Shown here: positions 3,555 through 60,000 of the stretch, piece by piece | Numbering within the stretch: position 1 is the first letter of the stretch | How the letters are laid out: each line of letters opens with the position of its first letter | Source: Tribonema minus | Taxonomy: Eukaryota > Sar > Xanthophyceae > Tribonematales > Tribonemataceae | NCBI GenBank assembly: GCA_017506865.1 | Contig: JAFCMP010000001.1 | Coordinates: 1,116,001 to 1,180,000 of the forward strand | Reading direction: 5' to 3' | Length of the DNA stretch: 64,000 nucleotides | Translations under genes and position numbers: made by a program | Notes under the pieces: generated by a model | Databases searched by the model: none | Told to the model about the DNA's origin: nothing | What the model saw: only the letters and a program-made list of their open reading frames with translations

Positions 3555-6500
3555 CTACTGTCCCCGCGACCTGAAGGCATGTAGCTCAGCACGCATTAGC
3601 AAAGCCAAGACTCTGACCTGCTCGATGGCGGCCGCCATTTGTGGACCCATTTCGCTGACCAGCTGCGGGTCCTTCAGGCCGGCGGTGATCTTGGCCTTCA
3701 CTGCGTCGTCGGCGATGCTGCCTTCCGCTAGCGCCTGCGTGTGAGAGAGGGTGTGCATAGATGGCGCTGGTCAGCTGCGCAGTGCCCCGTAACTGGTGCC
3801 GAATGCTCATTGGCGCGCGTGCGGCCGCAGACAAGCAGCGCGTGCGCTGTGGCCCGCAGATGTCTGTATATGGTTGGCTTTTGAGATTGCCATCAGCACC
3901 AGGACACGTGAGAGGCTGCCTTCCAGGGGTTGAAACACAAACAAGAAGCCTACCACCAAGCCCTGCTGAGTTGCGATGAGGCAGCAGCGCAGCTGCGCAG
4001 CACGTCGTTATGATGATGGCCAACAGCAACCGGATGGCGCATGTTGCGCCACATGACATTTGGGCAGTTACACCGGACCCTCACGCTGACAGTAGAGCAC
4101 CTGTGCAAGATGCACCCTGAAAGCGTGCCAGGGCCCAAGCGGAATCGACGCACCTTTGCGAGCACCGTCATGATGGCCGGCAGCGACGCCAATGCGGCCG
4201 GGTGCCGCATCTTGAGCAGGCCGATGACGCAGCCGTACACAGTCTCGTTCTCCTGCGCGTCGACCTTGAGCGGCAGCGCGCTGAGCAGCGCGGGCAGCAC
4301 CTGAGCAATGACACGCAACACACACACATTTCAGATCCCGCACGCGTTTGGCTGTAAGCTCCTCTACTCACAGTTAAGGACTTCGGTTCACAAATGGCGC
4401 TGCGCGTCAGGACGCATGCTCTTTTTTCTGGTAGTTGGATATTTTGGTCACAAAGGGCGCTACTCTGTGTTGTGACGGTGCTCGCCTGCGCAAAGGGGGC
4501 ACGTCAACAGCACCCTTCAAAGTTCTCGCTGCCATACTGCTTGTTCAAGGCTCGACAGGCATGCCCCTTCTTGCATGACATATACTTGATTCTTGTATGA
4601 CATATACTTCAAGTGCAATGTCCTCTGCCTGCGAGAACATGTCATCTGTCTTTGCCCCCCACCTGCTGCATGGCGGCGGGCGCGGCCATGACCCTGTACT
4701 TACCCCCTATCCTGTACATACCCCCTATCATATACCTACCCCCTATCCCTACATACCGCTGCACCCCCTGACCCCCCACCTGTTCCATGGGCACGGCGCC
4801 GGGCGCGGCCATGACGATGCGCGCCACGGCCGCCGCGGCGTTGTCGAGCAGCCCCCCCTCCGTCGACCCCTTGCCGGCCTTCTGGAAGATGGGCGCCAGG
4901 AGCTGAGCGGTGCCGCGGCGCAACCGAGCGGGAGAGTCACAGGGAGAACATGGTAAGACAAAGCCTGAAGGTGATATACAGACCATATTGGGATTTGATG
5001 CCCAAAATCTGATCATCTGCAATCTCTGCAAAATGCAAAACACAATTATCAAGGTCCAGAAAAGCGCAGGCATGTACTTCAAAGAGTGCGCACTGACTTT
5101 GGTCATGAGCATAATCTCACTCATGTATAGTGTGCGCGCCTGCAGCAGCTTGAGCATGTTATACCTGCAGTACTGCACGGCGCGCGCATGCGCACGTGCG
5201 AGTCCAGAACGACAACAGCTCTGCCTTGATCGCAACCATAAATCCATTCTCCCGTTACTTGTCCATAATGAATCCATTCACTCACAGCGCGCGCGTGCGC
5301 ATACCTGCTGCAACTCATTAACCCCAAAATTCATTCATCATGAATTCTGATGCTCGACAGCGTGCACGCACCTGCAGCAGCTCCAGCACGTGGGGCGTGA
5401 TGCTCTCGCCCGCGCCCTCCGCCAGGACGCCCGCGCAAAAGCACGTGTTGCGCACCACGCGGCTGGGGGAGCGGGGAGAAGGGGGAAAAGGGGGGGGGTT
5501 GAGGGGTAAGGCCGGGGTGTGATGAGCGAAACAGCCACGGCGATGAGTGGGTGGTGCCAGATCATAGGGCAGCGACAGCCCTGTCTGTTATGCTGGCTGG
5601 GTTGTGTGTTCTGTGCTTCGCGATAAGAAGAGAAATCAGGATTGGTTGCGGCTCCGGCAGAGGGAGGGGATCAATACAAAATGGCACTTGAGCGCCTCCG
5701 ACATGACTGCAGATGAGCACTGCAGCAGCTGTATTGACTCGTGCAAGGCAACAGACAGCTGCTGCAGGAAGGCGCATTATGTTCACAAATCACAGCCTGC
5801 GCTGCATCGAGGGAAAGGTGGCACTACAGTAGGTGACCATTTTGTACCTCCCCGCCGCCCCCAAAGAAATCAGGGTGATGACGCCTGTTACTCGTGCTGG
5901 TGCAGGCATGCAGTGTCAAGATGTGACCTGGAGCGTCCACCGCAATGCGAGTCTTGCATCATGGACCTCCAAAAGATGCGCTTGTACGCTGCGATTACTC
6001 ATCACGTCATAATCCACAATCGTTCTCACGCGCATCGCACGTCAGCCGGCGTTCATAATAAACGTGCTGTGCACCGCCAGCATGACGTGCTTGCTGCGCC
6101 TAGCAAGACGTGGCTTCCGCTTCAAGGTAGTGAGTGCATACATGAGAAGTATGCATAGAGTGTCGACATTTCACATCCACTTCTCGTCTGAGAGGGTCAT
6201 ACGTACAACGCGTGCAACGTGATGGAAGTGTGTACATAATGGCATTTGCTCTTGCGCACCTGTCAGAGTCCTTGAGACCCTTGCGCACGGCCGGCATGAC
6301 GGACGGCACGTACCGCGGGCCGACGGGCCCCAGTACTTGCATCACCTGGGGCAGATGATGATCAGCATGCATGCATCATCGCTCAGCAATCACACATCTC
6401 AGCACTCACACGCAACATTGCTCAACAATTCATGAACGCCAACCCTCAGCGATGGCCACCACGGCCCAGCAGTCACGCACGTCACCGTTGCTCAGCGATC

Positions 6501-9500
6501 GCGCACATCACTGCTCAGCAGTCACATGCATCATTGCTCAGCAATCGCTCGCGCATCACCACTTGAAATCCCACGTGCATGGCTGCTCGGCGAATGCACA
6601 CCATCGCTCATCAATCACACAAACGTCACTCACAAATCATGCCTCCATGCACTCGGCGATCACACATGATTCTATGACCCCACACGCATCACTGCTCAGC
6701 AATTCCACATGTCGCTCAGCAAACACACGGCACGGCTCGGCACCATTCCCAGCAATCGCACACCACGGCGCAGCAACACAGCGGTGGCCTCAGCGGGATC
6801 AAGTGATCTGGGCCTACTACTTCAAATGATGCGTGCAGGACACATCACAGGCGTGATGGCACAGCAGCACGGGCACGAGCGAGCGGTGTCTTCAGAGCAG
6901 TCGCAGAGCGCCGCTGCAGGCTTGGGCGCCGGCGCGCCGCGCGCGGGAATTCGACGCAGGCGCGGCGGCGGCGCTTAAAACATACAAGACATCATTGTAC
7001 CAGGAGCTGCGGGACTTTGAGCTGCTGCATACATCCATGAGAATGTACCCAGTGCATCTGGATACGGCGAGCGCGGTTTACGACGAGAAGATAAATCAAT
7101 GACGAGCATTGCTATCACGGGTAGACGTGCAGCGCAGCACAGCGCCACCGAGCGCACCTCAGCAATGGCCCCCATGTACGTCTGCCTCTCCGACGCCGGG
7201 TTGGACCCCCTGGTCCTCTTCAGCAGCATGGGCAGGAACGTGTCAAAGAAGGAGGAGAAGGGGGGGCCAATCACCCGCGCGAGTTCGCCGATCTGGCCGA
7301 GGAGCGGGGGGGGGAAGCAGGGGGCAGGGAAGGTGATGCGGCAACAATTGTGAGGCATGGGATACAATGACCACCTGGCTGGCATAAAGGCGTTCTGGAT
7401 ATTGTTGGCTTTTGGTCCGGCTTTTGGTCCACGCGCCAAAGAGAACCAGCAGATTGTAGCTGAGGACTTCGCGGCTCGGGTTAGGGTTAGCGGAGAGCAC
7501 GCGTTAGGCTTCAGGAGGGCGGCGAGAGGCAGCGCAATCTGCTACTCAAAAGCAACACCTCCCTTTGCCGTTCGACTGTTACACCAGCTGCCTATGTTGG
7601 TGGTCCTGCCGCACAGTAAACGGAGCCAGAGGTGATGCCTAATCATAACCCTGAGCTGGTGCGTGACTCGTCGGCAGGCTTGTAGCAGGGCAGCACTGGT
7701 CAGACAAGTTCACCACGGCCGTCATCAGTCCTCACCCCACGCGCAACCGGGCCAAGCGCTCACAGTTACTTCCTCACCGGAGCATGTGGGCAGAGGCGCT
7801 CTGTTCATTCGCCGAGCATCGAAAGCGATGATGAGCATAAACTCCAAATGTGAGGCAAGAAATGAGCGCCGGGCACAGTGACATGCCAGCGATGGCATGC
7901 AAGCCAAATAGGTATCGGCCACATATCAATTATCGTGTTCATGACTGCTTCAGCTTGCGGTTGGCGGCGTGTGACTCACCAGATCTGAAACGGCCTCGTC
8001 GAGGTCGCCGTCTGAGCCATTAGCGTCGTCGTCCTAATAAGAACAGTAACGAAGACAGAATAGCCGCGCAAGACAGACGAGTTTGAGCACACAACGTTGC
8101 GGCGGCAGCGCTGCGCGTGGCAATTGTGAAGACATTGACACGGTCCTTTCAAAAATCAGGCCAAGACACAATAGTCATGCACAGGCCACGATACACAACC
8201 CGTTCTCATTAGACAAGGATTGCCATTCAAGCAATGTGTCTGTACAGTAGCGGGGCGGGCAGGCAGGGTATGTAAGGCATGTAGAATGCAACTGTTGCCT
8301 CACGCAACGATTGCGCGTGTGAGACTTCGAGGCTCAGTGACAGGCACAGCGGGCTCCGTGACGGCTAACAAGGGGTCGATAGAGGCGCAAGACATGAATT
8401 ACGTGGGGGTCAGATCCACCGCAACAACTTCGACGGCAAGGTCAACTGTAACTTCAACTTGCAGCAGCGCTCACCTCCTCTTCCTCCTCGTCGCCGGACC
8501 CGGTCGGTCTCGGTCCGCTGTGCGGTCACAGCAACAACGAAAAAGTGACGTGTGCAATGGCGGCGTCAGAATGCGCAAGCCAGTACATCACCGCGGCTAA
8601 TGAGTATGTGCGCATGAGTCCGATCCATGCTGCTGCCGCAGAGCGATGCTGCCGCCAGCGTCCGCGCGCGTTACACCATAGACTTCAGGTTCAAGTGACA
8701 CACCACAAGCGTCGAGTTTCAGCTATGGCTTACGTACAGTAGGTGATCCAGCGCAATGACCGCGGCCGATGGAATCAGGAGAGCGAATATGGGATGACAG
8801 GTCAGGCGCGTATTTTTTGCTAGCCTGCCCCTGCTTCGTCGTGATGGTGATCAGCAGCCGTACTGATGGTGCTCATCAAGTAAGCATGCTACATACCTAC
8901 GCAACCTATCCTGCATCCTGCTGAGCGCTTGCGTGCCCATGAATGCCGCCCCCCGCAACCATGAATCTACCTATTCTAGCATCGGGTTAGAATTTGGGCT
9001 AGGTGCCTGTCAGCTACGGTTTGGGTAGCTAACGCGGTGCAATGACTGAAGTGAAGGCCAGATGCCGTGATCAGGACAACGGACACAACAATGACAAAAA
9101 TGGCGTACTAGGTCCGTGTTAGGAGTCCATCTAGACAAGGGAAACGGTGATGACAAGTGAGGAGTTCTTGTGTTGGGCAAGGGCTACGGTTACGTACCTG
9201 TCGTCGTCGTCTTCGACGTCCGTTTCCTGGCACGGCGCCTGTGAAAAGGGGACCAAGGGGAGGCGGCACAGCGTGAAGGGGAGCGCACGACAGGAGTCAA
9301 CACGAGCGGAACCAAAAGACAGACAATGACGAACATATCAAATGACAGCAAGTGCAGGGCCAGAACACAGACCACAAAGACCGCATCCATTGACAGGCGA
9401 GGATGATGGCGTTGCTTGTAAAATGCTCGCGCTTGACCAAGGCGGGCAACTGAGTCGAGGCACGCTGGGTGACGGCCGACGGCACCGGAGTAAGGGCGTC

Positions 9501-12500
9501 CGAGAGACAAGAAGGCGCTTCTTCCTTGCTGTATGACGCACACGCGGCCGCATGGCCCCCTTACCGAACACCCCTGACCCACCCCTCGTCCTGACCCTCA
9601 CCATAAACGTTGCTGCTGGACCCATGCGGCGCCCGCATTGCTCCGTGCAATTCGCCGGGCAGGTCATTCGTAGGAGTGGAACAAAAAGACGCCACCGCGC
9701 CGCGCGCACGCGTGCAGGCTACCACCAGCTGGCACAGCGTGCGAACTCACCGAACGGGCAAGTGGGCCGCCACAGAGCGATGGCGCGAGCAGCACCTCTG
9801 CAGCTCCAACTTCATGTTGAACTTGCACTTTCAAAGGTGACTCACCTTGCCAGTGAGGAACTGCGCCACGAGTTGCATGGTCTCATTGAGGTGCGGCGTG
9901 AGCGCCATGGGGCCAATCTGCGCCAGCACGCCTGCGCAGCGGGAGAGCGCAAGCGCGGCAGCAGCTGCAGCTCAAGGCGCTGCCTTCATTCAGGCACCGG
10001 GACAGAGGCATAGGAGAGCTGGCGCAAGCGGAGCAGCTGCAGCTGAAGGGAGCTTGCTGCCTAAATTCATGCAACAGGACAAAGGCGTAGGCAAGCTGGC
10101 TTTGACCATTGGCTCTTGAAGATGCAGCTCACCACCGGCTGCGATTGCAGCAACTCGCGGCGGTCGGTACTGGCAGCTGACGCCTTCCTTTGCAACCTTC
10201 GAGCAACAGCACGGTCGCGCAGTTACGGCGACAGCAAAGGTACACGCGCAGCGCCGTGTGGCATGGGACGTATACCAGCCTTTCTGCAGAAGCCGCGCAT
10301 GCGTGCGTGACGACTGCGCAGTCGACGTCCTCCTTTATGCTGTTGAAAAGCGGGAGCATCGCCAGCAGCACTCGCACTGAGCGGTGCGATGCAACACTCA
10401 AACACCCTGTTGCAACTAACCATGCAACGGCAGTGCTCTAGGGGAGGGGGAACATATGCTTCAAGAGTACGCCAACCTAGAACCAAGAGCAGCGCACGCG
10501 TGCGCGACAGCAGCAGAGTCGACGATCTCCTTGATCACCTAGAGCGGCAGCAGCGCCGCAATGCTACAGCGACACATGAATAAATTCAAGTTCACCACCA
10601 TGAGTATGTCCAAAGTTCAGCGCTGTGAGGCACGGGACGCATTGACCCACCTCCGGGCGCCGCGCACGCGTGGGCGACGACGACCGAGTCGACATCCTCC
10701 TTCATGACCTTGAGCAGCAGCATCGCCGCAGTGTTAATGCTACAGCGATACATACATAATTTCACGCTCACCACATAAATATGTCCAAGTTCACCCCCAT
10801 GACGCACGAAACACGCCAACCCACCTCCGAGGGCCGCGCACGCGTGCGCGACGACGGCCGAGTCGACATCCTCCTTCATGACCTTGAGCAGCAGCATCAC
10901 CACGGCGCTGGTGAGCTGCGTTGTGTGGGGGTGCAGGGGGATGGTCTGGCCCGCGACCCACTCCTCTTCTGCGGGGGGGTGGACAGCCACGGAGACCCCT
11001 GCCACTGACTTCAGGCAGTTGCACACCTGTTTGAGGGGGGGTGAGGGGGGGGGGGGGGGGGGGGGGGCAATTTGAGTGATCGTTCTTCCATGAGTTGCCG
11101 CTGTGATCAAGCTAACGCATTTCTTGATGATTCGTAAACAGGGTAAGAGGGGGGGCAGTCTGAGTATCGAAGTTGGTACTGTCACAGAGAGCGAGAGAGC
11201 ACCACGCGCTCTGTCGTGTTTTGGCAACTGTTGCCCCATCTAGTGCGCAGTTGCAGAGGGCCTCCATTTGTGCAGGCATGTGCCATATGCGCTTACATGC
11301 CCCAGACCACACTGTATACCTACATACCCTGCCAAAATCACATGCCTGCCTGCGCTCCCTACACAACCTCCCCGACAATACGCGGAGACAATTAGCCAAG
11401 CATGGCGTGCGGTCGTCGACGATACACTACATGCCTACATTGTATATAGTATACTCTACTTGGCACATGCCTACACGTCCCTGCGCCGCTCACCTCGCTG
11501 CAGGCCTCCAAGCGTCAGCTCTCAGACCATGGCGCACATGCGCGCCTACGCCACCACATGCATGCATATTCTACTCTGCACATGCCTACATACCCCATTA
11601 CGCCACCACATGCATCCGTACCCAATTCTGCACATGCCTACATACCCCCCCCCTCTCCCCCCCCCCCCCCCCGGTCACCTCGCTTCAGGCACTCCAATGA
11701 TGGCCTGCAGGTGCGTCTCTGCACATTGCTACATACCCCACTACGCCACCAAATGCATACCTACCCTACCCCGCACATCCCTACATACCCCCTGCTCACC
11801 TCGCTGCGGATCTCCGAGTGCCAGCTCTCCGTGTTGGCGCGCAGGCACTCCATGACGGCCTGGAGGTGCGGCTCGAAGGGGGCGGGGGCAAACTCGGCGA
11901 GGCCCCCCAGCGCGAGGAGCGCTGCCTTCTTCTTGTCCAGCTCCGCCGTGTGCACGCCGAGCATCTTGGAGTACGCCTCGGCGTCTATCGAGGAGCCACT
12001 CGCGTCCGAGTCGTCGTCGTCGTCCGCGTCGATGGCGGCGGCGTCGACCTCTCTGTGGCGCGTCCGGGGCAGTTGAGTGTCAGCAAACCTTCAGTGATGA
12101 ACAAAAGTATGACTGCATCGCATGAAAACGCTCTCAAGTGTCCATCGATACAGAACAGTGGGTGAAACACTTGCGTAGGAGGCGTCATTATCTGCGCCGA
12201 TGCCGGCGTCGTCGGCCTGTCTGCGGCGTACTTGTTCATCAGAGCATTTGATAATGATCATGACTATGCTGCTGCCGCCCCACGATCTGCCGCACGATGT
12301 GTTCCAGAACAGAACGCGCGCACGCTCCGCGCCCGGATCAGAATAACTCTTGAGCGTGCATCGCCGCACAGCCACGTGCGATTGGTAGCAGATCTTCGCT
12401 TGCATGCCTACACGCGCTCTTTGTTGGGGAAAACACCTATGTTTGTACTCACGTCCCAGGTAAATGACAGCCACGCACAAAATGACAGTCCGCTCAATGA

Positions 12501-15500
12501 CGGTATGCACGTCTCATACTTGCACCGCACTCAGTCTGTGCTGGCGCCGCCGCTCGATGCCTTCACGCCACGGTGTTGAGAGCAAACTCTTACTACCCCT
12601 AGGGAATGTGGACAGAAGTTAAGGGAAGGCGTTTCAGAAATCCATGCAACCGGCTTGTACAACTGGCACAAGCATCACACTCACTCTACGTTGCCTGCCA
12701 ACGCCTGCAGGCCCTCGCCGCCGTCGCTCTCGTTGATCTGCAAGCGCCGCCACACAGAGAGCAGATCGCACAACCAGTCAGAACGGCGGCATGATACAAA
12801 TGTAATACTTCAATACTTCAAAGGTAATGGGTTGTTGTAATGGTAGTGTTCTTCTTGAAACATGCCCGCGCCAGCAAAGCGTCGCCGGTGTGAGGTGCTT
12901 CATCGTGGTATCCATGAACAGTTGATCTGCAGGCGCCGCCACAAATAGAGCACCACCAGCAAGCGGCAGCATTATGCAAACAAGAAAATGAGCTTGGTTC
13001 TGCAGACGATTGTCAGGGCCAATGACGTATCGCTGGTCAGACGTGGTTCGCTGTGGCAACATAAACTGTGTGTGGGTTATGCAGTGTGCACCTGCAATGG
13101 CTGTTTCATGAGCTGTACCATAAGCATGCCTCATGAGATACTTCAAGAGCTACTTCCGAGTATATCGATGTCCACCAAAGTGACGTGATCGTCGCCTGAG
13201 CTCTGTGACGATAATGGCAGTTACCTCCGTCAGCTTTCTCAGGCAAAGTTCAACTACATCCATGCTCAGCGTAAGTGACGTGACTGTCCCCTGAGCACTG
13301 CGACCACAAAAATCGTCGCCTGAAACGCTGTGACGATGTGGCAGGTACCGCCAACAGGAGGTGCAGCACGAGGTCGTGTAGGTTCACCCACAATCAATGT
13401 CATCGACGGTGACGGGCACAGCAGCCTGAGCATTGCGATCACAAGAACAACGCCGGGGCCACCACGTCAGCAGGTGCGGCATGAGATCACGCTGGGCTCG
13501 AGTGCAATGACGATGACAGGCATTGTGGCCTGAGCGCTGTGACCCACGCGGCAGTTACGGCGGTTACGACAGTTACCTCCGCCAGCACATGCGGCACGAG
13601 CAAAAGCTGGATTCAAGTGCATTCAAGTGCAGTAGCGGCGACGTGCGTCGTGGTCTGAGCGCTGTGACCCACGCGGCAGTTACGGCGGTTACGGCAGTTA
13701 CCTCCGCCAGCAGGTGCGGCACGAGCTCGGGCATGAAGGGCGCCATCTGGTCCTTGAGGACCTTGGAGAGGTTGGCAAAGAACGTGTAGGCGAATTCGTG
13801 CAGCTCCACGTTGTCTATCTTGAGGCCCTCGGATGCGCTCTGCATGCACATGTTGACGTAAGGCTGCACAAGGGGGGAGGGGGGGGGGGGGGGGGCAGTG
13901 TTGTTGGTGGCGTGCAAAGGGATGTCAGGGTTATAGATCGTCATCTGCACATGAAGCACGTGATGCTCTCTCCACAGCCGACGGGAAGCACGTCTCACAA
14001 ACGAGAAAAGGTCGGCGATATGAACTCACAAACTACTAGGGAGGGACACTTCCGACAGATGTGCATGCGAGGCATGATGCATTCTTGTTGCCAATGCAAC
14101 TCATTTCCAGAGCGCTGGATGCTGTGTGACAGCAGCGGTCGATGTTGACAAGGAGTACTCTCATGCATGCTGCCGTTCCGATTGCTTAGACGTTGCAATA
14201 TGCTAGCACCCATGTTACAAAGGCGCCAACGCTGATGATGTATCTGAGACCAAACAAAATACATAATGCTAGGTGAGAGCTGGTGGGTGTCCGCACGATG
14301 TTCTGGCGCAAAACTGTTGTTCTTCAAGGTCCAACTGCCGCTCGCCGAAACCCTAGGCGTTCACAGACATGGCAAACATCGAGTACAACATGCGCATACA
14401 CATTTGCCACAGTCCGCGACATGAATAATAGCACTATCAATCGGAAGAACGGTAAGCTGACACATTGTCACCCTCCAACTTCATATTTCAAGTACTTGAA
14501 CTTGAAACACCTCAATACACATTACGTACGTACGTACCTGGAAAGCCTCCGCCTCGACGGCAATGGCAATGTGCCCCATGCACTCCAGCGCCCTGCCCCT
14601 GAGGGCCATCATGGTGTCGTCCGTGATGAGCAGCATCTGAGGCACACAGGAAAAGAAAAAGCAGTTCCAATTCCAGCTATAAGTGATTTCTTACCGTAGT
14701 AGTTCAAAATGAGAAAGGAGGGCATTCAAACATAACCTGACCCTAACCCTGACCCTGAACGCATGCTCACACCCCGCGCAAGGGAGCGCACCGTTGCAGG
14801 TGCCTGCGACACACTTCAAACTTGTAGTTCTTGATAGAGCAAGGCATAATCCGAACCTGAGCGCATGCTGGAAACCCCGCAAACAGCGGCAAACCGTGTG
14901 GAAGCGCGACCAACTGGCAAGACAATGAGGCGCACATGCCAGAGCACCGTTTCTATCTGCGTTGAAAAGTTCTTGGCAGTCGTCAGTCTGACGACAAAGG
15001 CGGGGGTCGGAAGTGCGGCGATGATGATGAGCAGAGCCCTAACTCTAACTCTAACCCTAGGTAGCGGCGCAATCACCGCACAAGCATGCGGGCCCAGGGT
15101 TAGTTAGGGTTAGAGTCAGCAATTGGGGTGTAACCTCCTCCCAAATAAGTGAACATCCCAAGCCGATAGAGTCGCCCGGACACCACAAGGCTGCCGTGAT
15201 TCAGCATATTTGGTTCGGAACACACTCTGATATGGGTCATGTCTTCGTCTGCGTGGGCAAGTTCGGGGTGCGCCTGTAGCAGTGTGTGTCACCTGTCTTA
15301 AGAAGCTGACGGTGCCGTCGAGGTAGCGCGTGAACGCCTTCTCCGCAGCGATGGCGGTGGCGGCGATCGCCGCGACGCTCATCTCCTGGACAGCGCGCTT
15401 GGGGGTTTGCAGCATCTGCGGCATAAATGGCAGTTACGCACCGTAAAATAAGGAGGACAAGAGATGAGCAGCAAAAAAGTGGACAATGCAACTTTTAAGC

Positions 15501-18500
15501 TAGTACTTTGAAGTGTGAGTTTGGTTCAAAGTTGAAGAAGCGGCGATCGCCGCGACGCTCATCTCCTGGACGGCGCGCTTGGGGGTTTGCAGCATCTGCG
15601 GCATGAGAAGCGACAGTTACGCGCAGCGGCGATGAGGGGCGGAACTTCACGGCGCGGAAGATGCAACTTCAAGCGAGCGCTTGAGGTGCAGACTCGCATC
15701 ATAGTTCAAAATGAGGCGACCGCAGGAATGCTCATCTCCTGGACCGCGCGCTTGCGGGTTTGCCGCATCTGCAGCAGTTGCGCACGACGAATGCATCAGA
15801 GCAGGACTCAGCGCGCAGAGGCGCATGATGTGAGAACAATCGAGCACAAGATGGGCCTGAGAGGCGATCGCAGCGATGCCCATCTCCTGGGTTGCAGGCT
15901 TGGGGGTCTGCGGCATCTGCAGCGTTTGCAGCGGTGATACGCAAGACCGGGCTAGTTTAGCCAGGCCCTACAACGCAAAGGCGGGTGCTGCAAGCACACC
16001 CTGAGTGTGTATTTGGTTCAATGCTTCACCGTAACACACACATGTACTTTTCATTGATTCTCGCCCAGGGCGCTAATAAGCCCAGATGAATGGTATCTAC
16101 GCTTGCTGTACGGAATCTACATGTCGTGTGACGGTTTGAAAGAGTCTCAAGGACCACCACTCATGTACATCCGTGACACGCACCTGCACCAGGCGCTGCA
16201 TCAGCGGCTCGAGGAAGGGCAGCACGGTGTCGGGCTGCAGGTTCTCGCAGAACATCTCGAGGACGTAGCACGAGACGCCCTTGACGTTGTCCGTCGCGTC
16301 GTCGAGCAGCATGAACACCACGGGGAGGATCTCCTGCGCGCGAAAGCACACGTGCACGAGCAAATGCGGCAGCGACAGAGTGGTGAGACGGGCTGCTCGC
16401 GCAGGGCTCTCCCTTGAGATTTCACAACCCTGTTTGGTGTTGCAGTGCTGTTGAGGAGGAAGGTCATCACATTCTTACCAATTTTAGTATTGGGACAGAC
16501 GCGCCTGTGCCCTGGGCTGGCGCGTCCAAGGTATGTATACAATACTATTCTCTAGTTACTGTATGTATCTTGACGTTGTCCGTCGCGTCGTCGAGCAGCA
16601 TGCACATGACGGGGAGGATCTCCTGCGCACGCGCGGGCACACGCGCACGGGAGTGCAAACGCGGCAGCGACGGAGCGGTAAGATTGCACCTGTGTGCGCG
16701 TGGCTTGTGAGACCGTTGCGTGCACACGTGCACGCGCACGTCTCTTGCTCGGGATGGCATGTTCTCCAGTACAGATACGATGGAATTTGCTATTCATCTC
16801 AAAGAAGAAACCAACACTGACCTCTGTGACGCTTGTCGAGCGCGGCTTGTGGGAGCGTCGCCCAAGCGCGCAAACGCAGAGCGCGGCAGTCACAGCTCGG
16901 GCGAATGATGTGCAGCCACAACTTCAAACAGGCGAGAAGGCGGCGAAAGGCGCACTTTTGCATCCAGTAGAGTGTCTTGCTCATGGCCGAAACACTTGGA
17001 GTGACGACCAAGCCCCCCTGTGCGGTCTGAACTTGCATGCCACATTCAGGAAAGTGTGCAGTGCTGGCCTGCTGCGTACCACACGCTCACAATGTGCGAC
17101 ACCAGCACAGGTGGGGCGCAAAAGCTCACAATGTGTACACGCCGCCGACGGACACCAGCGCACAGGTGCGGATGCATGTGCATACCCTGTGCCCGGCCCC
17201 CTAATTCAGCGCTCCCAAATAGCACTTCAGCAATCCTTGCGCTCTTGGTACTTGGAGTAATGCACCTACATGTGGTCATGCACCAAGTGTACGGTCATCA
17301 GTGTAGCTGCATCTTCAAGCAGTGACGCACCGCGTGGTACTCGAGGATGTCCGGCTGGCAGTGCTCGCTGAGCTGGCCGAGGCAGAAGCACGCGCACTCG
17401 CGGACCGCCGGCTCGGGGTCCACCGCGGCGTGCAGGATCTTGGGCAGGATCTGGTCCAGGTTCATGCGGATGAGCTCGTTGCAGCCTGAGGAAGGGGGAA
17501 GGGGGGGGGGGGGGAAGGGGCGATTAAATTGCTGAGACACTGATGCACCAGTTCGGGACTCCAAGGTTTACGGATGATACAGGCGGTAGCGCTTGAGGTG
17601 GGACGCGCGCGCTGGCGTGCGCGTGGAGCTTCCGCACGTGGGAGCGTGGTGTTCTTGCGCACTCCCGCGCATCGTTTTGGGCGCAATGTGCTGATGTGCG
17701 CTGTAGACCGTGCGCGGGCGCGCATGGACTGCCGCACAGCATCAGCACCGCTGTCTGGCGATGGCGCGACGTCGTTATTGCATGTGTGCGTCTCAAAGCG
17801 CCTGCAGCACGTGCTCACCGGCATAAGCTGAGAGACCTCAAACTACACCATGTATTTCGTCGGCTTCGGTGATGGCGCTCGTGACCGCGACGCCCCCTCG
17901 CGCTTCGTGTGGGGATGGACTGTCATGTATAGGGGTAAGTATATCGCGTGCAGTTGTGTGCAATGAGCGACACCACCAGTTCATCAAGGACCTGTACACC
18001 GCGTGCTTGCGGCTGAGCACTCAGAGACCTCACAGACCTAAGTAACTTCACCTTTGGAGATGGTATTGCGTGCGCTCGCGTGCAAGGCGCACCGCAAAGG
18101 GCCAGCACTGCGCCTGCTTGCGGCTAGGCACTCAGAAACCGCACAACCTAGGTAACTTCACCTTCAGAGATAACGCCCATGACTGCGACGCCCGCCTGCC
18201 ATCACTGTAGGTGCGCATTCAACGGTGACAACTCACAAGCTTTCACCGTTGAGTCATGCATGAACCTCAACCCCATGTCCTCTTACTATTTGCGTATTTT
18301 TTTGTAATCAACTTCACCTTCCGTGATGACGCCCATGACGGCGACACCCGCCTTGCGCGTGTGCGGGTCGGGGCTGTCAAAGCACTGCCCGCACAGCTCC
18401 ATCGCGGGCGGGAAGATGAACCTGCCCGGGAGGTACAGGGCCAGCTGGTCGAGCGCTGCCTGCGCGGCACAAGTAGGGTTAGGGTTAACGTTGGGGTCAG

Positions 18501-21500
18501 GGTTGGGCTAGGGTTACGACAAAGCTCGTAGGGGAAGGTGGCTGGGCGAGCACTGCCGCCGCGGCCAGAAACCTCAGGGTCCTTGCTGCGTCCGCTCAGC
18601 AAACCTTAACTCAGACTTGAAGTGCCGTGAACAGGGATCAGATGTCCATTTTCCGTCATCGTGGCGCTGTCCGCACATGTCAAGAGGCTGCGGGTACGCG
18701 CATTGGCAACTACAATGGCCTACTGCATTGCCTGTGTACTTGGCGCTCAACCGGACCTCAACTGGAATGTACACGGCGCGCCTCAGTCGCAGTGTTCTCG
18801 CGTGAGTTCACGTGTGAGAGTGCGCTCAAGTACAGGCAGGACGTGCAGAGCTTCCCGCGGGAGCTCACGCAGTCAGTTGAGCGCGCAGCGCACCCTGGAC
18901 TGCGCGTGTACCCCAGCGAGGCTTGGGCAGCGGCCAACACTCCGCCCAACCTCGGCTTGAACTTGAAATGGGCACACCTGACACTCACAGCCGCAGAGTT
19001 CACGCGAGAACACTCCAGTGCACCTGCGCGATGGACTGCGTGTTGGCGCCGTCGTAGTCCTCGTCGCTGTCCTCCTCAGCACCTGCGAGCGCCTCGTACG
19101 TGATCCAGCTAACCTCAACTTGAACTTGAAGGGCACATCACTCACCTGCGCTATGGACTGCGTGTTGGGACCGTCGTAGTCCTCGTCACTGTCTTCTTCA
19201 GCGCCTGCGAGCGCCTCGTACGTGAACAGCGCATTTGCCGCGCTGCCCGTGTGTCCCGCGATGAGCTCGACCTGGGGGGGAGGGTCAGGGCCGAAGCGTT
19301 GGGGTTAGTTTAAACCCGACCAGAAGACGCCTAGGGACCGAGCAAACAGGACATCCGGCTGCTGCTGCAGGCATTGAGAACTCACGCTCATCAGTCAGGA
19401 ACAAGATGTAAGGGGAGACAAATCAATAGCACAAGACTAATGATGGCCTTGAGTGCCGTTGACGCTGGTCAGCAACGGTCCATCACGCGGCGCGCTGGCT
19501 CGACGATCGCGCCGAGACCGCCCGGGGGAGCAGCGCCCGCGACATGATGGTGAAGTCGATGAGCTGCGACACAGCACAGCGCAGGGCCCTCAGCGGCGCT
19601 CGCTGCGTGCTGCCGCAGGCGCGCGCGCACTCGTGTGAAGGCCTGACACGCGAGCGCATCAATGCTGGGCTAGGGTTAGGGTTACGGTTGGCGCGCGTCC
19701 CCGTCATACGGCACATATACCCCCGCTCCAGCTCTGCCTCAGGCAAGCACTTCCAGGGAAGACGGGGACATGGTGTTGCCGGGGACGGAGGGGGGTAGTC
19801 GAGGGGGTGCTTCGGGCATGCGCATGGGACAGACAAGGAGGTATGTACATATGTAGGGCTGATGGCAAGGGCTTCAGGTCTCAGCGTCATCGTGACAAGT
19901 CGCCCATAGCGTTGCCATGAGTTCCGATGGCGACAGCGCATGGCAAGAATGAAGCAGCGTTGATACTGCAGTACAGTCTGCCTCAGAGTTTGGGTGGGTG
20001 CCGTTGCCATGGTTGGTACCCAGAATGCACGACACTGAGCCCCTTTTGCCGTCGCAGATACCGTCGCAGATACCTGAACACAGGTTCGCAGATACTGCAA
20101 CACAGGGTCACCGGCGGCATTGATACGTAGTACATTGTGCCGCGCTCACCATGACTTTGAGCACCGCGGGCACGCAGCCGGTCTTGCCGAGCGCCTTGGG
20201 CTTGAACTCGGCGAGCGTGCCGAGCACAAGCGAGGCGGAGTCGCGAGTCGTCATCTCCAGTGAGTCGTTCCGCAGCACGCACAGGATGAAGTCAATGACC
20301 TGTCGCGCACAAAAAAGGACACCAGCCGCTGCGAATGAGTGTCGAGGCTGGCTGGTATATACCCAGATGAGGGGATTGTAGGCATGTACAGCGTGGGGGG
20401 GGGGGGGGGGGCATTCAGGCCGTGCAACGGGGGCGGGGGGGGCGGAAGGGGGGGGGGGGGCAATCAGCAAGACTGCAAGGATGGCGTGGTAGGCAGGCAG
20501 GCGCAAAGCGCGTGTGGCAATGCTGTGTATTCGATGCTCATATGATGCGCATGTGGCAATGTCATGTACTTCTATACAACATGCACACTGCACGATATGA
20601 AAAACGCACTTTAAGGTAAACAATGCATCTACTTGATGATCAACCCAGACGCATCTCATACTAAACAGTGCCTGCTCCTCAACTTGACCCTGCCCTCAAT
20701 CCAGCCCTACCCCTAACCTGCGGCAAGCCATGACGGCAATTTACTCGCGCAGACTGCCCTCATGAGCTTATCGCTGTTCTGCATCTGTGCTCGTTGACAT
20801 CGCCGCCGCGGCTGCGCACAGGCGCTGCTGCTGAGCCGTTGATGCCTTTACTGCAGATGCTCGCTTGCGCGCTGCAATCTCGCTTGCATGCTGCAATTCG
20901 GCTTGCTGTTCCAACGGAACACCAGACTCAGAGTCGCACTCAGGACGCCATAGCCCTAGCCCAACTAACCGTAACCCACTAACCCCACTTGAGCCCCCCA
21001 CCTGCGTCAGGTACGGCGTGATGATGGGCAGCGGGCTGTTGCAGAGGTCCACAACTCCTTTGAAAACGAGGCTGAGGATTAAATATCCCGAACACAGTCC
21101 ACATATCGCGATCAAAGTCACCCGGCCCTTCCAACACTTCTCCCAGCCCTAATCGAACGATAACTCCACCTCCCACCTGCGTCAGGTACGGCGTGATGAT
21201 GGGCAGCGGGCTGTTGCACAGGTCCGCGAGGACGTCCATGACGTGGCACACGCTAGTCTCGTCCGCGCGCGCGACACACTGCTGCGCGACGGCGAGCGTC
21301 GGCGGTATGAGGTCCGCAAAGACCAGCGCCTCCTGCTCCATGCTCAGGTACGCGAGCAGGCTGCTCGAGCTCTGCAGCGCGGCGACCTGGACGCGCGGGC
21401 TGGGGTCCACCAGGGCCTGCGCGGGTTCGAGTCGCACAAGGACGTGTGCTTTTTCTTTGTGAGTATGACTATAGCGTGTGCCTCGAGCAGGTACAGGTCA

Positions 21501-39492: not shown

Positions 39493-39523
<31 letters not shown>

Positions 39524-45948: not shown

Positions 45949-48900
45949 ATGGCGCAGGAAGGCACAGCGCGAAGACGAGTGGTGCTGACGAAGAATGAAC
46001 AGACCGACGCCGAGCCCACCGCCGCAGAAATTGCTGATGCCGCGGATGCCGCTGTAGCAGATGCAGCTGCAGCTGCTGCAGCACCTGCGGAGCCGCCGCC
46101 GCCAAGAGGTGGGGCTGGTGTCAATGACAACGTGCTTATTGTGATCTTCTTGCGTCACCTTCTCGTGCCAGTTGACTGCTGTGTTTGCTACATTTCCACC
46201 TAAACCGAATATTATCGTGTCCAAGAACTGACACTTGTGCCTTTGGGTTTTCGGCGTCGGACACCTTGGCAGCTCCCAGGCCGAAGCCAACTATGCTCAG
46301 GCAAGTGACAGACGTCAGCACTTCGGCCACGTATGACACGCACCTCGCAACTCCTGAAGCAGCCCATGTTCATCTGGATTGCACTGACACTACATAGCTT
46401 GTTGGTACTGGGCCTCACAGTAGTTCTGTCATAGCCACATTCTTGCTGCTCTGAGTATAGCATGACAATACAGAAGAACCCATCAACGCGGCTGATCGAC
46501 CACTGCATTGGTGATATCAGAAGTAGCTCGGCAGGCCGCCGCGTGTGCCGCATCATCCTGTACAGGCCAAATTGTGATTTACATGTGTAGAAAACCCTGT
46601 AAAAAAAACTGTTCCCGCAGAGGAAGCCTGACGTGCATGGACCGTCTCTCGCTCTCCCAGGACGCTGATCATATACGGGCTTCCAGCGCTCGTGCTGTGC
46701 TTCATCTACGGCTACAACCCGATAACGGAGCTGCGGTTGGCGTATGGCGAGCTCACGGGGAGCTATCCGCTCTACACACAGGAGCAGCTGGCGAAGGCAA
46801 ACTCCCCGAAGCGCCCGCTCCTAGTGTGAGTGCCAGTGGCAAGTGTGACATGCGTGGTGCTGGCTGCCTGCAGCGCTGCGCACTTGCCGCCCTGCCGCTC
46901 ATGTGCTTGCGATCTACCGCAAACCCACACAAAGCTGTGAGCCGCATCCTCCACGTGAGGCATGTGACCAGGGCAAGCGCCACCGCACGGGCAACTCGCC
47001 GTACGCGGGGTTCTGCCGCCGCGACGGCTCGCGCACGCTCGCAGCAAAATTCAAGCAAAACTCGACGGTGCGACTGCTTGCTGGTCACGTGTCATGCCGA
47101 CGGCGTTGTGCGCTCCTCGCTAACGTGCGCAGCGTCGTCGGCCGCACCTACGACGTGACGAGAGGCAAGCACCACTACGCGGGCGATGCGTCGTGCGCGG
47201 GGTTCTGCGGCCGCGACAGCTCGCGCGCGCTTGCAGCAAACTTCAACTTTAACTTACGGCGACGCTGCTCGCTATTCACGCGTACTGCCGACGGCGTCGT
47301 GCGCTCCTCGCAAACGTGCGCAGCGTCGTCGGCCGAATTTATGATGTGACGAAGGGCAAGCACCACCACACGGACGACTCGCTGTACGCGGGGCTCTGCG
47401 GCCGCGACGGCTCGGCGCGTTCGCGACGGGCAAACTCCAATATGAACTTGCACTTTGTACTTCTCCTAAACTCCGACGCAGCGTCGTCGGCCGCATCTAC
47501 GACGTGACCAAGGGCAAGCACCACTACACGGGCGACTCGCCGTACGCGGGGTTCTGCGGCCGCGACGGCTCGCGCGCGTTCGCGACAGGCGACTTCACGG
47601 CGACGGGCCTGACGCCGGACCTCGCGGGGCTGGAGCCGAAGCAGTGCCGCGCCGTCGCGGACTGGGCAGGGTTCTACGACAAGGACGACAAGGCAAGCGC
47701 TGCTGTACGCGCACGTGGCATATACATGTTTGTTGCGTGCAGTGTGGCGAATGCATGCGCGTGGCATGTGCATGCCGTTGAGTACGTGCTGTGGTGTGGT
47801 GGTTGTTTTGGGGGGGGGGGTGGGGCAGATTTGGGGTGCGGTGAAGCATGCTCAGCAGTTGCTGAACTGGATTCTGCCTGCAGAACATTGAGCAAGCATT
47901 GCGCGGTGTTTCGCTCGTGACGCGGTGCGTGCGCTTTGGTTGCTTCATGTATTGAAGGGACTGAGCGTTGCGCACGCTGTCGGCAAAGTTTGGTGTCAGC
48001 AGCGCTGGTGTCTTTGGGCCAGGGCGGGGCTGCTGCGCAGCGTTAGGTTTAGGGTTGTAATATGTCGGCAAGGCAGCTATCAGATGTCCGAGCTCATTGT
48101 TGGTGTTGCTGTTGGCCGGGAGGGGTGGTGTGACTCGTGGGGTATCAGGGGCATGCAGGCTGCAGGGCTCAGGTTGGCAACGTGAATGAGCAGTTGATCA
48201 GTGCTTGTTGATTTAAGCCCAGGTCCATGCAGCGCATGATCGCATTCTGGAAGGGTGAGGGTTAGGGTTCGGATCTCTGCGGCATCCACTCCAATGCCCT
48301 TCAGCGTCGAGATGCAGTGTGATGTTCATGCAGCAGTGCTCACAAAGGGGGGGGGGGGGGGGGGGATCCTGCCACACTACGTTTGACTGATCCCACAGAG
48401 GCCGCTCTCTGTGCACATAGCTGATCACAATATTGCGCTTTTCCAGAAGGCATGTGCCGCAGGTGCACAATCGTTTCACCGTCACTCGTCACGCATGATT
48501 AGGCTGCGGTCGTGCGCATCCATTCCTCCTGTGCAGTACGATGAGGTCGGCAAACTGGTTGGACACTTCTATGATGCGCGGGGGGCGCCGACGGCGGCGC
48601 TGCGCGCCTTTGAGGAGTGCGTTGCGGAGGGGGAGAGGGAGGCGATTTAGGCTGCAACTGCACAATTGTTTCGCTGTCACTTGTCACCGCATGACCGTGT
48701 TGCACTTGCGCGTGTCCTTTCCGTTCAGTACGATGAGGTCGGCAAACTGGTGGGACACTTCTATGATGCACGGGGTGCGCCGACGGCAGCGCTCCGCGCA
48801 TTCGAGGAGTGCGTTGCTGAGGGGGAGAGGGAGGCGCAGGAGGCGGCGCGGCTGCGGGAGCTGTATCCGCCCTGCAGCTCGCGGTGGGCACAGGTGAGCG

Positions 48901-53285: not shown

Positions 53286-53654
53286 GCACCGCCCGCTCAA
53301 CGGAGTGAATTCGTGCGCCACAGTGTCATGTCAAGGCTGTACACTTGAAGGAGACACACGTGCAAAACCGCAAGTGCCATGCAGTGACATCATATGCCAG
53401 TGAACGTAGGCAGGGTCTCTCTTGGTGGCACAGAACCGGCAAGGCTCGTTGCCAGGCCCCTGCACCACAACAAGGTGGAGACCGCATTCATGGGGGAGCT
53501 ACCTACACGAGCAAACATGCATGCAACGCCGGCATGAGCAGCAAGCCAAGCCACAATGAAGCGGTATGCACCGCACCCTCAGCAACAGCAGCAGCATGTG
53601 TCTCAGACGCTATAAGCGCAAGCCTGGGCCAGGCCATGTGCGAGGGTGGTGCCT

Positions 53655-53768
53655 GTACTTTTTATTAATTCTCGCTCAGGGCGCGAAAAAGCCCAGATGA
53701 TTGGCATCTAGCTGTAAGGAATCTACATGTCGTATGACAGTCTGAAAGTGTCGCAACGACAACCACTC
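53655..53768 (+). repeat. dispersed repeat family B, copy 3
   Basis: Contains TTAATTCTCGCTCAGGGCGC, AGCCCAGATGATTGGCATCT and GAATCTACATGTCGTATGAC, closest to copy 1. Confidence 0.85.
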
Positions 53769-55800: not shown

Positions 55801-55865
55801 CCACCGCACAGGCGTCGCTGCTGCAACTCCAGCGCTGCCGTGCAGACACACTCACAGCGTCTTCA

Positions 55866-56981
55866 CTACATCTCCATCGCCTGCAGCAGGGGGCCGTCAA
55901 AAACAGCGGGCAGGTGATCCGCGCTGCCGTCGAAATCGTCCAGGGTCAGCGCCGCCGTCTCGCCAGTGCGCCGCAGGTAGCGCGGTGGCAGCTTCCCCGC
56001 GCCCATGCGCCGCGCGTGCTGAGTCGCCTCGAACTCCGGGTGCAGCGCCTCCCAGCGGTGGCGCACCTGCGTGCGCGCGCGGCACGATTTGTTGAAGCTG
56101 ATGAGCCGCGGCATGCATTGTTGGGGTTGGTGAGCGGCCGGGGGGTGTCACTGTTGAGCATCTGTTGCCGCTTGATGAGCGACCGGGGGGGTGTCACTGT
56201 TGAACGTCCGATGTCTGTGGCGGCGGCGCGCGCAACGCGCTAGGTGCGGCGCGGTCGCTGGCACACAGCGTTGCACTCATCCGGCACGTGGCGCCGCGGT
56301 ATCAACTGCAGGTGCAACGCCTCCCGGCAACCGCATTGACTTGCATCACGAGCATCATGACAGCAGCAGCAGCAGTCATTGTTGAGCATCAACAGCACGC
56401 ATGGGGTCAGCTCCTCAAGTTCTCGCGCTGCTGCTGCTGAAGAAAGGTGCTCGTGAGGCGTGGCGTAGGACGATGCGTACACTGTGGTGGCCACGCAAAG
56501 CGTTTAGTGTTCGCCTCTGGAATGCGGTCGCCGCCGCTGCGCCGTCGCGGCACGACGACAGCACACAGAAATCACACATGGACGTCACCGTCTCGCCGAC
56601 CGCACAGCAACCAGTGGCATCTGATCAGCATCAGCAAATCACATACTTCAACAGGTACATGTAGATTCTGGTTGCAAGTCCATGGACATCCACCATCTGA
56701 GTTTTTTTGCGCCCTCATCGAGACGTAAAATAAAGTACATGTCGTAGGCGCAAGCAGCTCACCATGACGTCCGTGCGCCCGCCGCCCATCCGCCGCGCAA
56801 TGTCGGACCACCTCCCCGGCCCCAGCTCGCGCGTGAGCGCCCCCAGCTGAGCATCCTCCGCGGGCGTCCACCCCCCCCTCCGCACCGCCGGATTCACCGC
56901 CTCCGTCCACTTCTCGCGGCAAGCCGCCGCGGAGCGTCCCCCCTTGACGTACTCCGCGACCGCCTTCCAGTTGATCTTAGG

Positions 56982-57022
<41 letters not shown>

Positions 57023-60000
57023 CGCTGCCGCCGCCGCCGTTGTCGCCGCTGTCGCCGCCGTCGTCACCGCCGCCGCCGCCGCCGCTGCGCGTTGAGCACG
57101 CCTTCACCGCGAGGCACAGGCGGCGCAGCTGCAGCTGCGTCCAGGGGTGCTCCTTGGCGCGGCGCAGGCGCGGGTTCAGCGACTGCGACCAGCGGAGCTG
57201 CGGCGAGAGAGGGCGACGGTGGTGGCGGCGCGCGCGAAAGATGTGAGGCGGCGGCGCGGCGGCGGCGCGGGACAGCATCAGAAGCGCTTTCAGGGTGGCG
57301 GCGGCGGCAGAGGACAGTGTCAGAAGCGCTCTGAGACTGCGCGCACGCGAGGCGAGTCGGTGGCGGCATCGCCGTACTATCGGCGGCGGCGGCGGCAGCG
57401 GCAGTGGCGGCGCGCGCGGGAGATGTGAGGCGGTGGCGGCGGCGGCAGAGGACGGTGTCAAAAGCGCGCTGAAACGGTGCGCGCGGGTGGCGAGTCGGGT
57501 GCGGCGTCACCTTGCGTACGCCATTGCAAGCACATGAGTTGTGCACAGGAGACGGATCGGTTACAGTGTCGCCGAACGCTGTTGGCGGCATCGCCAGAGC
57601 AAACAGCGTCGCCAGGCACCGCTGGACCCGGTGAGATTGACCCTCGGGCAGCGGCAAGTTGGCCTGCGGCACCGTCGTACAGAGTCAGGCGCACGCGGAT
57701 GTGTGCGTAGGGGGGCACATCGACTATGGCATCGCCGTACAGGCCGTCGGAGGGGCGCCGAGGTTGTGCACAGGAGGCACGTCGTCTGCGGCGTCGCCAG
57801 ACACGATCAAAGGGACTCACATGCACCTCCACGCTGGTTGTTGGCGGAACGCTGAGGATGAACGCTCGATCGCGGCGCCGGTGTGGCACCGCAGTCCCTC
57901 ATCACCGACACGAGGAACACATTCGAATCCGCACGCAGGTGCGCCTCGGCGGCCGACCGTGCTAAGCAAGCCCCAACCATGACACCCGGCGGCGTCGCCG
58001 CCAGCGACGATGCAGCCTGCACCGCGTGCCTGCATCACATGGGGTGACAGCGAGCACTGCCGCGGCGCCGTCGCAATGGCTGAATCAGAAAGATGCGTAC
58101 AAAATCGACACGAGTGAGGTCGACTGACGCGGTGGAGCGTGCGAGAGACTGCCAGAAGCGGTCGCGCAGCGCGGCGTGCTCGCGGTGACTGCGATGTCCA
58201 GCGCGCGAGGCGCGCGTCCGCTGCGGCAAAACGCACCCAGGCCCTCGGTGGCACTCACGGCACCTCGTGTGACCAAAGCAGGGCTACAACGTGTCACAAA
58301 GCAGGGCTAGAAACAGGCGTGCGGCGCCGTAGGGCACGCGCGGCGCCCACAAACATACGTACGCACCCGGCACTGCTGCCAGTTCTTGGTGCCGACGTCC
58401 GCAGCGACGCGCCGCCACGTCTGCGCGCCGTGCGCCTCCACCGCGCCGCGCAGCAGCGCGTCCTCCTCCTCGCTCCACCGGCTGTCCACGCCGCTCGCGT
58501 TGAGCGTCTGCTGGAAGTGGCGCAGGCACTGCACCGCGGAGCGCGAGCCGCCGCCGCCGCCGCCGCCGCTGGCGCCGCTCACGTCCGCCGCAACGCCGCA
58601 CCAGTCGTGCTCGCCGCGCGCGCGCGCCGCCGCCAGCAGCGCCTTCTCCTCCGCCTTGCTCCACGGCGTGCGCAGGGGGGTGACGTGCGGGCCGCACGCG
58701 TTCGCCCACGCGGCGCGCGCGTCGTCGGCGCTGCGCATCGCGAGCTTCGCCGTCGACGCCGTGCTGCGCGCCGCCGCCGCCACCGCCTGGGGGGGGAGTG
58801 GGCGGGGGGGGGGGGGGGGGGGGGGCGCGCGCAGTGTGCAAAGACCAATGATTGATCGGCAGCCTGATGCGCAGTTTTGTGCGTTGCGCGGTATGTAGTA
58901 CCTCAGGGTGTTGATAGAATGCAGTTTGCGACTGTGCCTGTGGATGCCGACGCTGTTCACTGATGCATAAGAATGAACGGTAGCCAAAAGTGGATGCCAG
59001 CGCCCAGCACACACCCACGCACACAGACACCAATGCATCAATTAGTAGGACTCATGTGCGATACCGCAATGAATCAATGAATCGTTGCAAGTGCCGGAAG
59101 AAGACGCGGCCACGCAAGTTCCCCGAGACAGCTGCACAAGCATCCAACTATACATACCCCCCCCCCCCCCCAAAGCACCATACACCGACCACCCGCCAAA
59201 GCACCAAATACCTACTTTAAACTGCATCAATGCAAGTACGTCATATACATGCCTCCCAATCCACTGCCATGGTACATCCACATCTGCAGCACATGACTTT
59301 CCCCCTCCCGATACCCATACATACCCCCCAGTCCACCGCCGCAGCGTTCGCCGCCATCTGCGCCTCCGGGAACAGCCGCGCCACCGTCGCCGCGAGCGCG
59401 CCAAGCTCGGCGCGCGTCCACGGCACGTCCACATTTGCAGTGACACAACATCAAAACACCGCATGCACGCACGACGCACCCAACCCCCTCCCCCCCCCAA
59501 CCAATCAATACCCATACCCACCTCCCAGTCCACCGCCGCGGCATCCGCCGCGGCGTCCGCCGCCGTCTGCGCCTCCGGGAACAGGCGCGCCACCGTCGCC
59601 GCGAGCGTGTCGAGCTCGGCGCGCGTCCACGGCGCCGACAGCGCGCGCGCCGCGCTGCGCGCCTTCGCCGCGGCGGCGCCGCCGGTCGCATTTGCGAAGG
59701 CCTCGCTCTCGAGGAAGCGCCGCAGCGCGAGGAACGGCGGCATGGGCGCCGCGGCGCTGGTGAGGCGCGCGGGCTGCTGCATGCGCGTGCAGCGCGCTGC
59801 GATGTCTGCGGCGGCGGCGGCGGCGGCAGTTGCGCAGGCGGTTACATGGCGGTTACAGATCATATTTCTTTAGCGCTTTACAGTCGATGCGGCGGCGCTG
59901 GCGGGGTGCCCGCAGCGGGCAGCGAACGCGTGCAGCGCGCGGCGACGGCTGAGGCGGTGGTTACACAGCAGTTACGGTCCAAGTACGCTGTGTGCGCTTC

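Follow-up and report, generated by a model that had tools for sequence, protein, structure and literature searches.

Sequence stuttering, including an exon stuttering in which splice sites are copied, has been described on the dot chromosomes of the chicken (Hron et al. 2026, PMC12954441). In the parts of that paper on which we draw, 236 introns in 115 genes are reported, of which 190 lie on dot chromosomes (3.4% of the dot introns), with 1–44 copies and an exon part of median 36 bp; gerbils are mentioned as unshown data, and either repair under replication stress or meiotic non-crossover conversion is put forward there as a speculative origin. A tandem duplication of intron–exon structure is known from the potato RdRp gene (Ma et al. 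2016, PMC4974935), and introners form sets of related elements that are dispersed among many genes and frequently bear terminal repeats (PMC7789003); both papers are likewise cited for the portions used here. The present analysis concerns 64,000 nucleotides from the alga Tribonema minus (positions 1116001–1180000 of contig JAFCMP010000001.1; hereafter, the window), drawn from a genome of 158 Mb in 554 contigs. The window contains an importin-4 gene whose exon edges recur, together with their splice sites, as partial copies ("echoes") in the adjoining introns. Such copied splice junctions are a real, junction-centred feature of several genes on several contigs, and are absent from other genes.

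The algal case shares with exon stuttering, as set out in the cited parts of PMC12954441, that the lateral part of an exon and its donor or acceptor recur as imperfect tandem repeats in the adjoining intron while the exon itself is intact, and that intron-only repeats are present too. Its anatomy agrees with the definition used in the chicken screen, including a source at the exon border that spans the splice site (63/66 alignments, with GT or AG in 54/63; detailed below). It differs in occurring in an ochrophyte, in affecting 44 of 110 edges in five genes, in reaching up to 6 copies and in its regular step of about 154 bp. The chicken setting, which is outside the screen definition, is mainly one of small chromosomes rich in guanine and cytosine (GC). 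The algal examples lie on contigs of 0.1–2 Mb, which are not chromosomes, at a GC fraction of about 0.50–0.64; this would weaken the link to GC-rich sequence drawn in the parts of PMC12954441 cited here. In the open-licence literature, judged mainly from titles and abstract openings, PMC12954441 was the one paper on exon stuttering to be retrieved, and no description of it outside vertebrates was recognised. A preliminary description of the window had known of no other genome that behaves in this manner, a statement that the chicken dot chromosomes overturn; the alga provides a new variant, in an ochrophyte and at 40% of the edges in five genes, of a phenomenon named in 2026. With the potato case it has in common a within-gene duplication that supplies splice signals, but there, in the portion cited, a new intron was created, whereas in the alga it is an intron already present that becomes longer, and the transcripts seen make no use of the copied junction. 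As with introners, repeated sequence makes up intron length in a protist; unlike the introners of the cited portion, every algal array examined is private to one junction.

The importin-4 model was obtained by spliced alignment of a transcriptome protein (P0001, 1075 aa) to the minus strand, with about 90–100% identity in most exon alignments. It comprises 26 exons from 27290 to 3236, and 25 of 25 introns are GT–AG, the aligner being restricted to GT or GC at the donor and AG at the acceptor. Template-based models of the chaperonin genes CCT3, CCT4, CCT5 and CCT8, which lie on four contigs other than that of the window and whose names rest on searches in this analysis, complete a set of five genes with 110 edges on five contigs. 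The CCT5 model is supported by a second transcriptome protein (P0095), 100% identical across the spliced 338-residue query. Among the best 120 of the 6145 matches listed for CCT5, Chrysoparadoxa australica reaches 87% identity and named brown algae 80–84%; the best matches of CCT5, within those 120, and of importin-4 are ochrophytes. All four CCT models were edited by hand before counting. In CCT3 two tiny exons were removed, one end and one acceptor were shifted (1187 and 3987) and the last two pieces were joined; in CCT8 a 31-nt exon was removed, one start and one end were shifted and the last two pieces were joined, and the end at 1868 is the limit of a hidden Markov model (HMM) match, about 9 nt short of the likely donor. 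In CCT5 the first start and last end were shifted and a terminal piece was removed as an echo, and in CCT4 a 5-nt piece was removed and one end was shifted. Four matches to U2 small nuclear RNA above the Rfam cut-off are present in the genome (C46:1086067, C46:1089186, C132:41497 and C57:74324), so that the major spliceosome is to be expected.

Edges were called echoed at an expectation value (E) of 1e-3 or below. At this threshold 13 of the 52 importin-4 edges, on 12 exons, have partial copies in the adjoining intron (Table 1); the call at edge 12737 involves 6 exon bases only, and a fourteenth edge, 23381, is echoed at E≤1e-2 only and was kept as one extra weak case. The four CCT genes behave alike, which brings the total to 44 of 110 edges (40%), with up to 6 copies detected per array. 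A self-comparison of the window, of the kind proposed in the preliminary description, returned 44 direct repeat pairs with offsets below 1.5 kb, and the offsets quoted there recur (122–125, 154, 174–175, 180 and 191–195 bp). Of 55 donor edges, 29 have a match in the downstream intron that they border, and of 55 acceptor edges, 17 have one in the upstream intron that they border, under a cut-off exceeded in about 1% of comparisons to the remaining introns. When the intron on the wrong side of the exon was searched as a control, matches were returned for 2/33 exon starts and 1/33 exon ends.

The anatomy of an echo was established from 82 copies at 43 edges. In ungapped alignments anchored on the junction, identity is 0.88–0.90 over the last 18 exon bases (random, 0.25), and on the intron side it falls from 0.92 at +1 to +3, through 0.74 at +4 to +6, to 0.42 at +12 to +17. 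Homology of the intron flank is significant (p<0.02) in 61/82 echoes, and in 29/34 of those with exon identity of at least 0.93, which indicates that most arose by contiguous tandem duplication with a flank that then decayed fast. With the exon interior as query and the last 5 exon bases omitted, 63 of 66 alignments extend to 9 bases or fewer from the junction, and GT or AG is retained in 54 of these 63; the preliminary description had the splice site always included in the copy. The nearest copy lies at a median offset of 154 bp, and 75/82 steps fall in the 80–239 bp bins. It is also the best preserved in 16 of 22 multi-copy arrays, as first described, and along these arrays identity goes down in 27 outward steps, up in 9 and is equal in 3. 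Greater decay of the older, farther copies is supported, but it is not simple, as exon parts outlast the intron flank. The distance from exon edge to farthest echo takes up 18–44% of intron length in the five genes, where the median intron is 797 nt long.

Local repeats are concentrated at exon edges. In the five genes 44/58 local-repeat clusters (0.76) include an edge, compared to 22.2±3.2 and a maximum of 33 under random placement (2000 draws), and with exons masked, so that only intron homology was used, 9/26 clusters abut an edge versus 1.2 expected. The preliminary description had advised a count against other intron sequence; made here in part, over a few genes rather than genome-wide, that count favours the junctions. 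Chaperonin and kinesin loci were located by exon-by-exon family searches across the genome. In twenty loci, which span 139 kb, 200 local repeat pairs are direct and none is inverted; three of these loci contain more than 30 pairs and seven contain no pair; inverted local repeats number 0 in five more loci and 2 in the window segment 27300–46000. Three random 10 kb stretches contain 11, 9 and 4 repeat clusters. Echo density is uneven among genes: CCT3 (L031) has 5/12 and CCT5 (L036) 12/20 edges echoed, and L032, L033 and L038, which from sequence motifs we take to be CCT7, CCT1 and CCT2, have 0, 1 and 0.

Introns here probably grow by repeated junction-spanning tandem duplication that leaves echoes behind. 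A segment of about 150 bp (mostly 80–240) lying across an exon–intron junction would be duplicated in tandem and lengthen the intron; the copy contiguous with the whole exon would keep being spliced, and the other, made up of an exon-edge piece, the splice site and some intron, would stay in the intron as an echo. Repetition at one junction would then build an array with the younger copies inside. The observations behind this proposal are the anatomy, the flank homology in most echoes, the inner–outer gradient, the direct orientation, the step, the recurrence in several genes, the edge enrichment and the preservation of exon parts. The stepwise duplication and intron growth of the preliminary description are upheld by it, and that earlier interpretation is partly supported overall; an outer copy keeping its function was not seen, and both transcript-derived proteins (P0001 and P0095) use the copy that is attached to the complete exon. 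A unit of about 150 bp is near nucleosome size, which is only a suggestion of a connection, and it would be a guess that duplication is tied to splicing, transcription or a nucleosome-sized unit.

Two echoes of one edge both reside in intron sequence, so that under neutrality the two sides of the old junction are expected to decay to a similar extent. Echo-to-echo identity is, however, 0.859 for the exon side and 0.732 for the intron side (unrelated intron, 0.636), with 0.011 and 0.064 gap openings per column, respectively. Simulations were run on the same genes with the same detection, using 3 replicates per setting, 4 for long deletions or 6 for neutral echo–echo asymmetry. The exon–intron difference in identity was 0.004–0.035 under neutrality and 0.027–0.077 with long deletions, versus 0.127 observed. 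For the nearest echo of each edge the difference is 0.052 at codon positions 1–2 and 0.148 at position 3; assuming that 72% of third-position changes are synonymous, the implied parent synonymous rate is 0.133, or 2.55 times the echo rate (bootstrap 1.42–4.11). Raw echo differences number 94, 83 and 217 at the three codon positions, and changes in single echoes of multi-echo arrays 53, 58 and 96, a third-position excess that is partly due to synonymous change in the parent.

Selection on the exon-derived parts of echoes, which might act as decoy splice junctions or now and then provide an alternative exon end, would be favoured by this asymmetry, by the ratio of 2.55 and by the codon pattern in single echoes. 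Echo splice sites also retain scores much higher than those of random intron GT or AG, and in-frame stops occur in only 4/82 echoes, a raw count without a computed expectation. Such selection nevertheless appears unlikely. Past the invariant dinucleotide the donor score (+3 to +9) drops from 1.87 to 0.98 and the acceptor score (−20 to −4) from 3.45 to 0.83, so that echo sites do not appear to be strictly maintained for splicing, and functional upkeep of the splice site was rejected on these grounds. Changes that occur in the nearest echo and in no other are distributed among the codon positions without clear pattern (11, 12 and 16), which discounts protein-coding constraint as the sole cause of conservation. 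Offsets modulo three (32, 26 and 24) exhibit no preference for multiples of three, and the synonymous ratio in multi-echo arrays alone, 1.94 (0.79–3.99), is not significantly greater than 1.

Alternatively, the parent exon, which does not change, might serve as the source from which short-tract gene conversion or template switching refreshes the echoes. The greater similarity of the nearest copies would fit this, as would exon parts that look young beside old flanks; at CCT8 edge 4185 there are 0 differences in 43 exon-derived sites next to a flank of about 71%. Generic similarity-driven conversion, which is distinct from conversion limited to exons, was simulated and rejected: it gave edge fractions of 0.28–0.43 in four settings versus 0.76, an exon–intron difference of 0.013–0.082 and no sharp boundary (identity 0.59–0.71 at +12 to +17 versus 0.42). 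Refreshing should furthermore equalise the parent synonymous and echo rates, yet their ratio is 2.55, and we regard this explanation too as rather improbable.

A third possibility is that tandem duplications fall at random, that those inside exons are purged and that those spanning an edge are easier to see since the parent exon does not change. Duplications do occur inside introns as well, and geometry and detection bias are real effects. Uniform duplication with ordinary decay, however, produced edge fractions of only 0.21–0.41 (four settings), and with long deletions 0.27–0.46 (five settings). Long deletions combined with detection bias were discarded for reproducing neither the edge fraction nor the echo–echo asymmetry, of which random placement yields too little, and random placement is hard to credit. 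The Rogers model, in which introns are born by duplication of AGGT-containing exon segments, likewise involves within-gene tandem duplication, and the upstream exon end matches the last 200 nt of the intron in 6/49 introns above 450 nt; the downstream exon start matches the first 200 nt in only 1/49, the introns are long, and echoes carry the same junction and not the opposite one, which leaves this model very improbable. Intron repeats are typical of introner or transposon families and of assembly artefacts, but each array copies its own exon edge, pairs in the window at least 3 kb apart number 13 versus 47 nearer, with no one family common to many of its introns, and copies in the assembly sequence diverge by up to about 30% with indels, so that either origin is barely conceivable.

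Returning to junction-spanning duplication, simulations with 70% of events aimed at edges and neutral substitution gave edge fractions of 0.79–0.85; this candidate was set aside because it misses the echo–echo asymmetry (exon 0.757–0.791 versus intron 0.739–0.752). With half of the events aimed and exon parts changing at 0.3 of the neutral rate, the edge fraction was 0.81, identities were near those observed and most measures were close. Indels were forbidden in exon-derived echo parts throughout the constraint and aiming simulations, so their gap rates provide no independent evidence. In these models a slower change of the exon part, at about 0.15–0.3 of the neutral rate, is needed, and the aiming of duplications at junctions is likely but not proven. 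We infer that the edge enrichment has two sources, a preference of duplication for junctions and a prolonged survival of pieces derived from exons; that survival may stem from constraint on echoes or from recopying of the exon. More tentatively, and with some doubt, a process of this lineage may aim duplications at junctions, and exon-derived echoes may be kept with a rate of change about one third of neutral; introns would then be largely retained border copies.

Several observations weigh against junction-spanning duplication. Fourteen of the 58 clusters in the five genes contain no modelled edge, three of them in a part of CCT3 where exons are unmodelled as the template lacked residues, and four importin-4 clusters contain no exon edge. 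In 16 further genes with incomplete HMM-defined exon maps (L042 and L046 excluded, and one L048 match dropped as itself an echo) the excess is weaker, at 22/46 clusters versus 13.8±2.9 and a maximum of 26 in 1000 placements, and nine of the 16, some with introns, have no edge echo on these incomplete maps. Echoed edges number 0/12 in L032, 0/10 in L038, 0/6 in L037 and 1/16 in L033. Significant flank homology was not detected in 21/82 echoes, and some with 95–98% exon identity stop 3–8 nt into the intron; such short-flank echoes may not be contiguous tandem duplications. Exon parts changing at 0.15–0.25 of the neutral rate gave edge fractions of 0.53–0.66 in the absence of aiming, and prolonged survival by itself could account for some of the enrichment. 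The half-aimed model overshoots, with 54 echoed edges versus 44 observed and 36 intron-only clusters versus 26.

Table 1. Positions of the importin-4 gene, its echoes and other tandem repeats in the window
Feature	Position	Strand	Remarks
Importin-4 gene	3236..27290	-	26 exons and one extra exon, 16184-16333; P0001 spliced alignment
Echoes 1-2 of donor edge 25943	25616..25863	-	offsets 154, 319; exon-part identity 0.96, 0.73
Third echo of donor edge 25943	25321-25375	-	
Three echoes of acceptor edge 23653	23734..24108	-	offsets 164, 295, 447; identity 0.96, 0.95, 0.82
Weak echo of donor edge 23381	23212..23250	-	offset 161; E≤1e-2 only
Intron-only tandem duplication	22649..23081	-	no exon edge, counter-example; offset 218, 74%
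Two echoes of acceptor edge 21416	21517..21742	-	offsets 153, 318
Echo of donor edge 21177	20994..21050	-	offset 175; exon part 48/49
Echo of donor edge 19146	19016..19103	-	offset 122; exon part 73/80
Echo of donor edge 18318	18154..18197	-	offset 156
Echo of acceptor edge 16333 (extra exon)	16569..16683	-	offset 289; exon part 51/54
Three echoes of acceptor edge 15415	15540..15924	-	offsets 180, 353, 501; identity 0.98, 0.84, 0.80
Echo of donor edge 13702	13498..13601	-	offset 125; 79 bp homologous intron flank
Weak echo of acceptor edge 12737	12921..12952	-	offset 189; 6 exon bases
Echoes of donor edge 11800 and flank	11452..11649	-	offsets 143, 185, 310; 2/3 alignments end 7-8 bases before exon
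Two echoes of donor edge 10825	10473..10727	-	offsets 174, 344; fainter copies from 10249
Echo of donor edge 4780	4655..4698	-	offset 117
Neuferricin array, ~191 bp units around Cyt-b5 frame	46964..47590	+	repeat search; located by repeats, not exon edges
Neuferricin-region 195 bp tandem repeat	48456..48836	+	repeat search; located by repeats, not exon edges
197 bp repeat in putative SNAPC4-like (Myb-domain) region	59311..59633	-	repeat search; located by repeats, not exon edges

The putative extra exon of importin-4 at 16184–16333 is bordered by AG and GT, and its acceptor edge is echoed 289 bp upstream. As P0001 lacks it, it is either left out of at least some transcripts or no exon at all. 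Two further genes of the window had been named in the preliminary description. In the neuferricin region a Cyt-b5 match lies within the open reading frame (ORF) 47345–47920, and no Cyt-b5 match was returned for the ORF 46849–47349. The putative SNAPC4-like gene has Myb domains in the ORFs 58307–59041 and 56715–57506 and no Myb domain in the ORF 59042–59869; repeats in this region were found at 57294 and 59311 by self-comparison of the window. Dispersed repeats of about 100–120 bp, 83–93% alike and with one copy inverted, are present at 26137–26231, 51143–51244 and 63541–63643, and at 16043–16163 and 53654–53769, and are possibly small mobile elements. The peptides KLKLRLK, LKLEF and NFNFNL recur in six-frame intron translations, for instance within 24100–24534, 25414–25779 and 46849–47349; read from translations and not from DNA, they would reflect a short motif repeated in the DNA. 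The minus strand also contains two very long frames uninterrupted by stops, at 35467–38934 (1155 aa) and 39939–43442 (1167 aa), and the stretch that holds both, 27300–46000, has only two local repeat pairs.

To our knowledge, the lengthening of introns by routes other than transposon insertion is poorly understood. The algal case suggests that exon stuttering is confined neither to the dot chromosomes of birds nor to extreme GC, which leaves fewer possible causes. The two departures from neutral expectation, in edge fraction and in exon-part preservation, merit genome-wide study. In the alga many genes present the process at a range of ages, which allows its rate, unit size, junction preference and consequences for splicing to be measured, and its presence in this organism makes the cause of exon stuttering testable.

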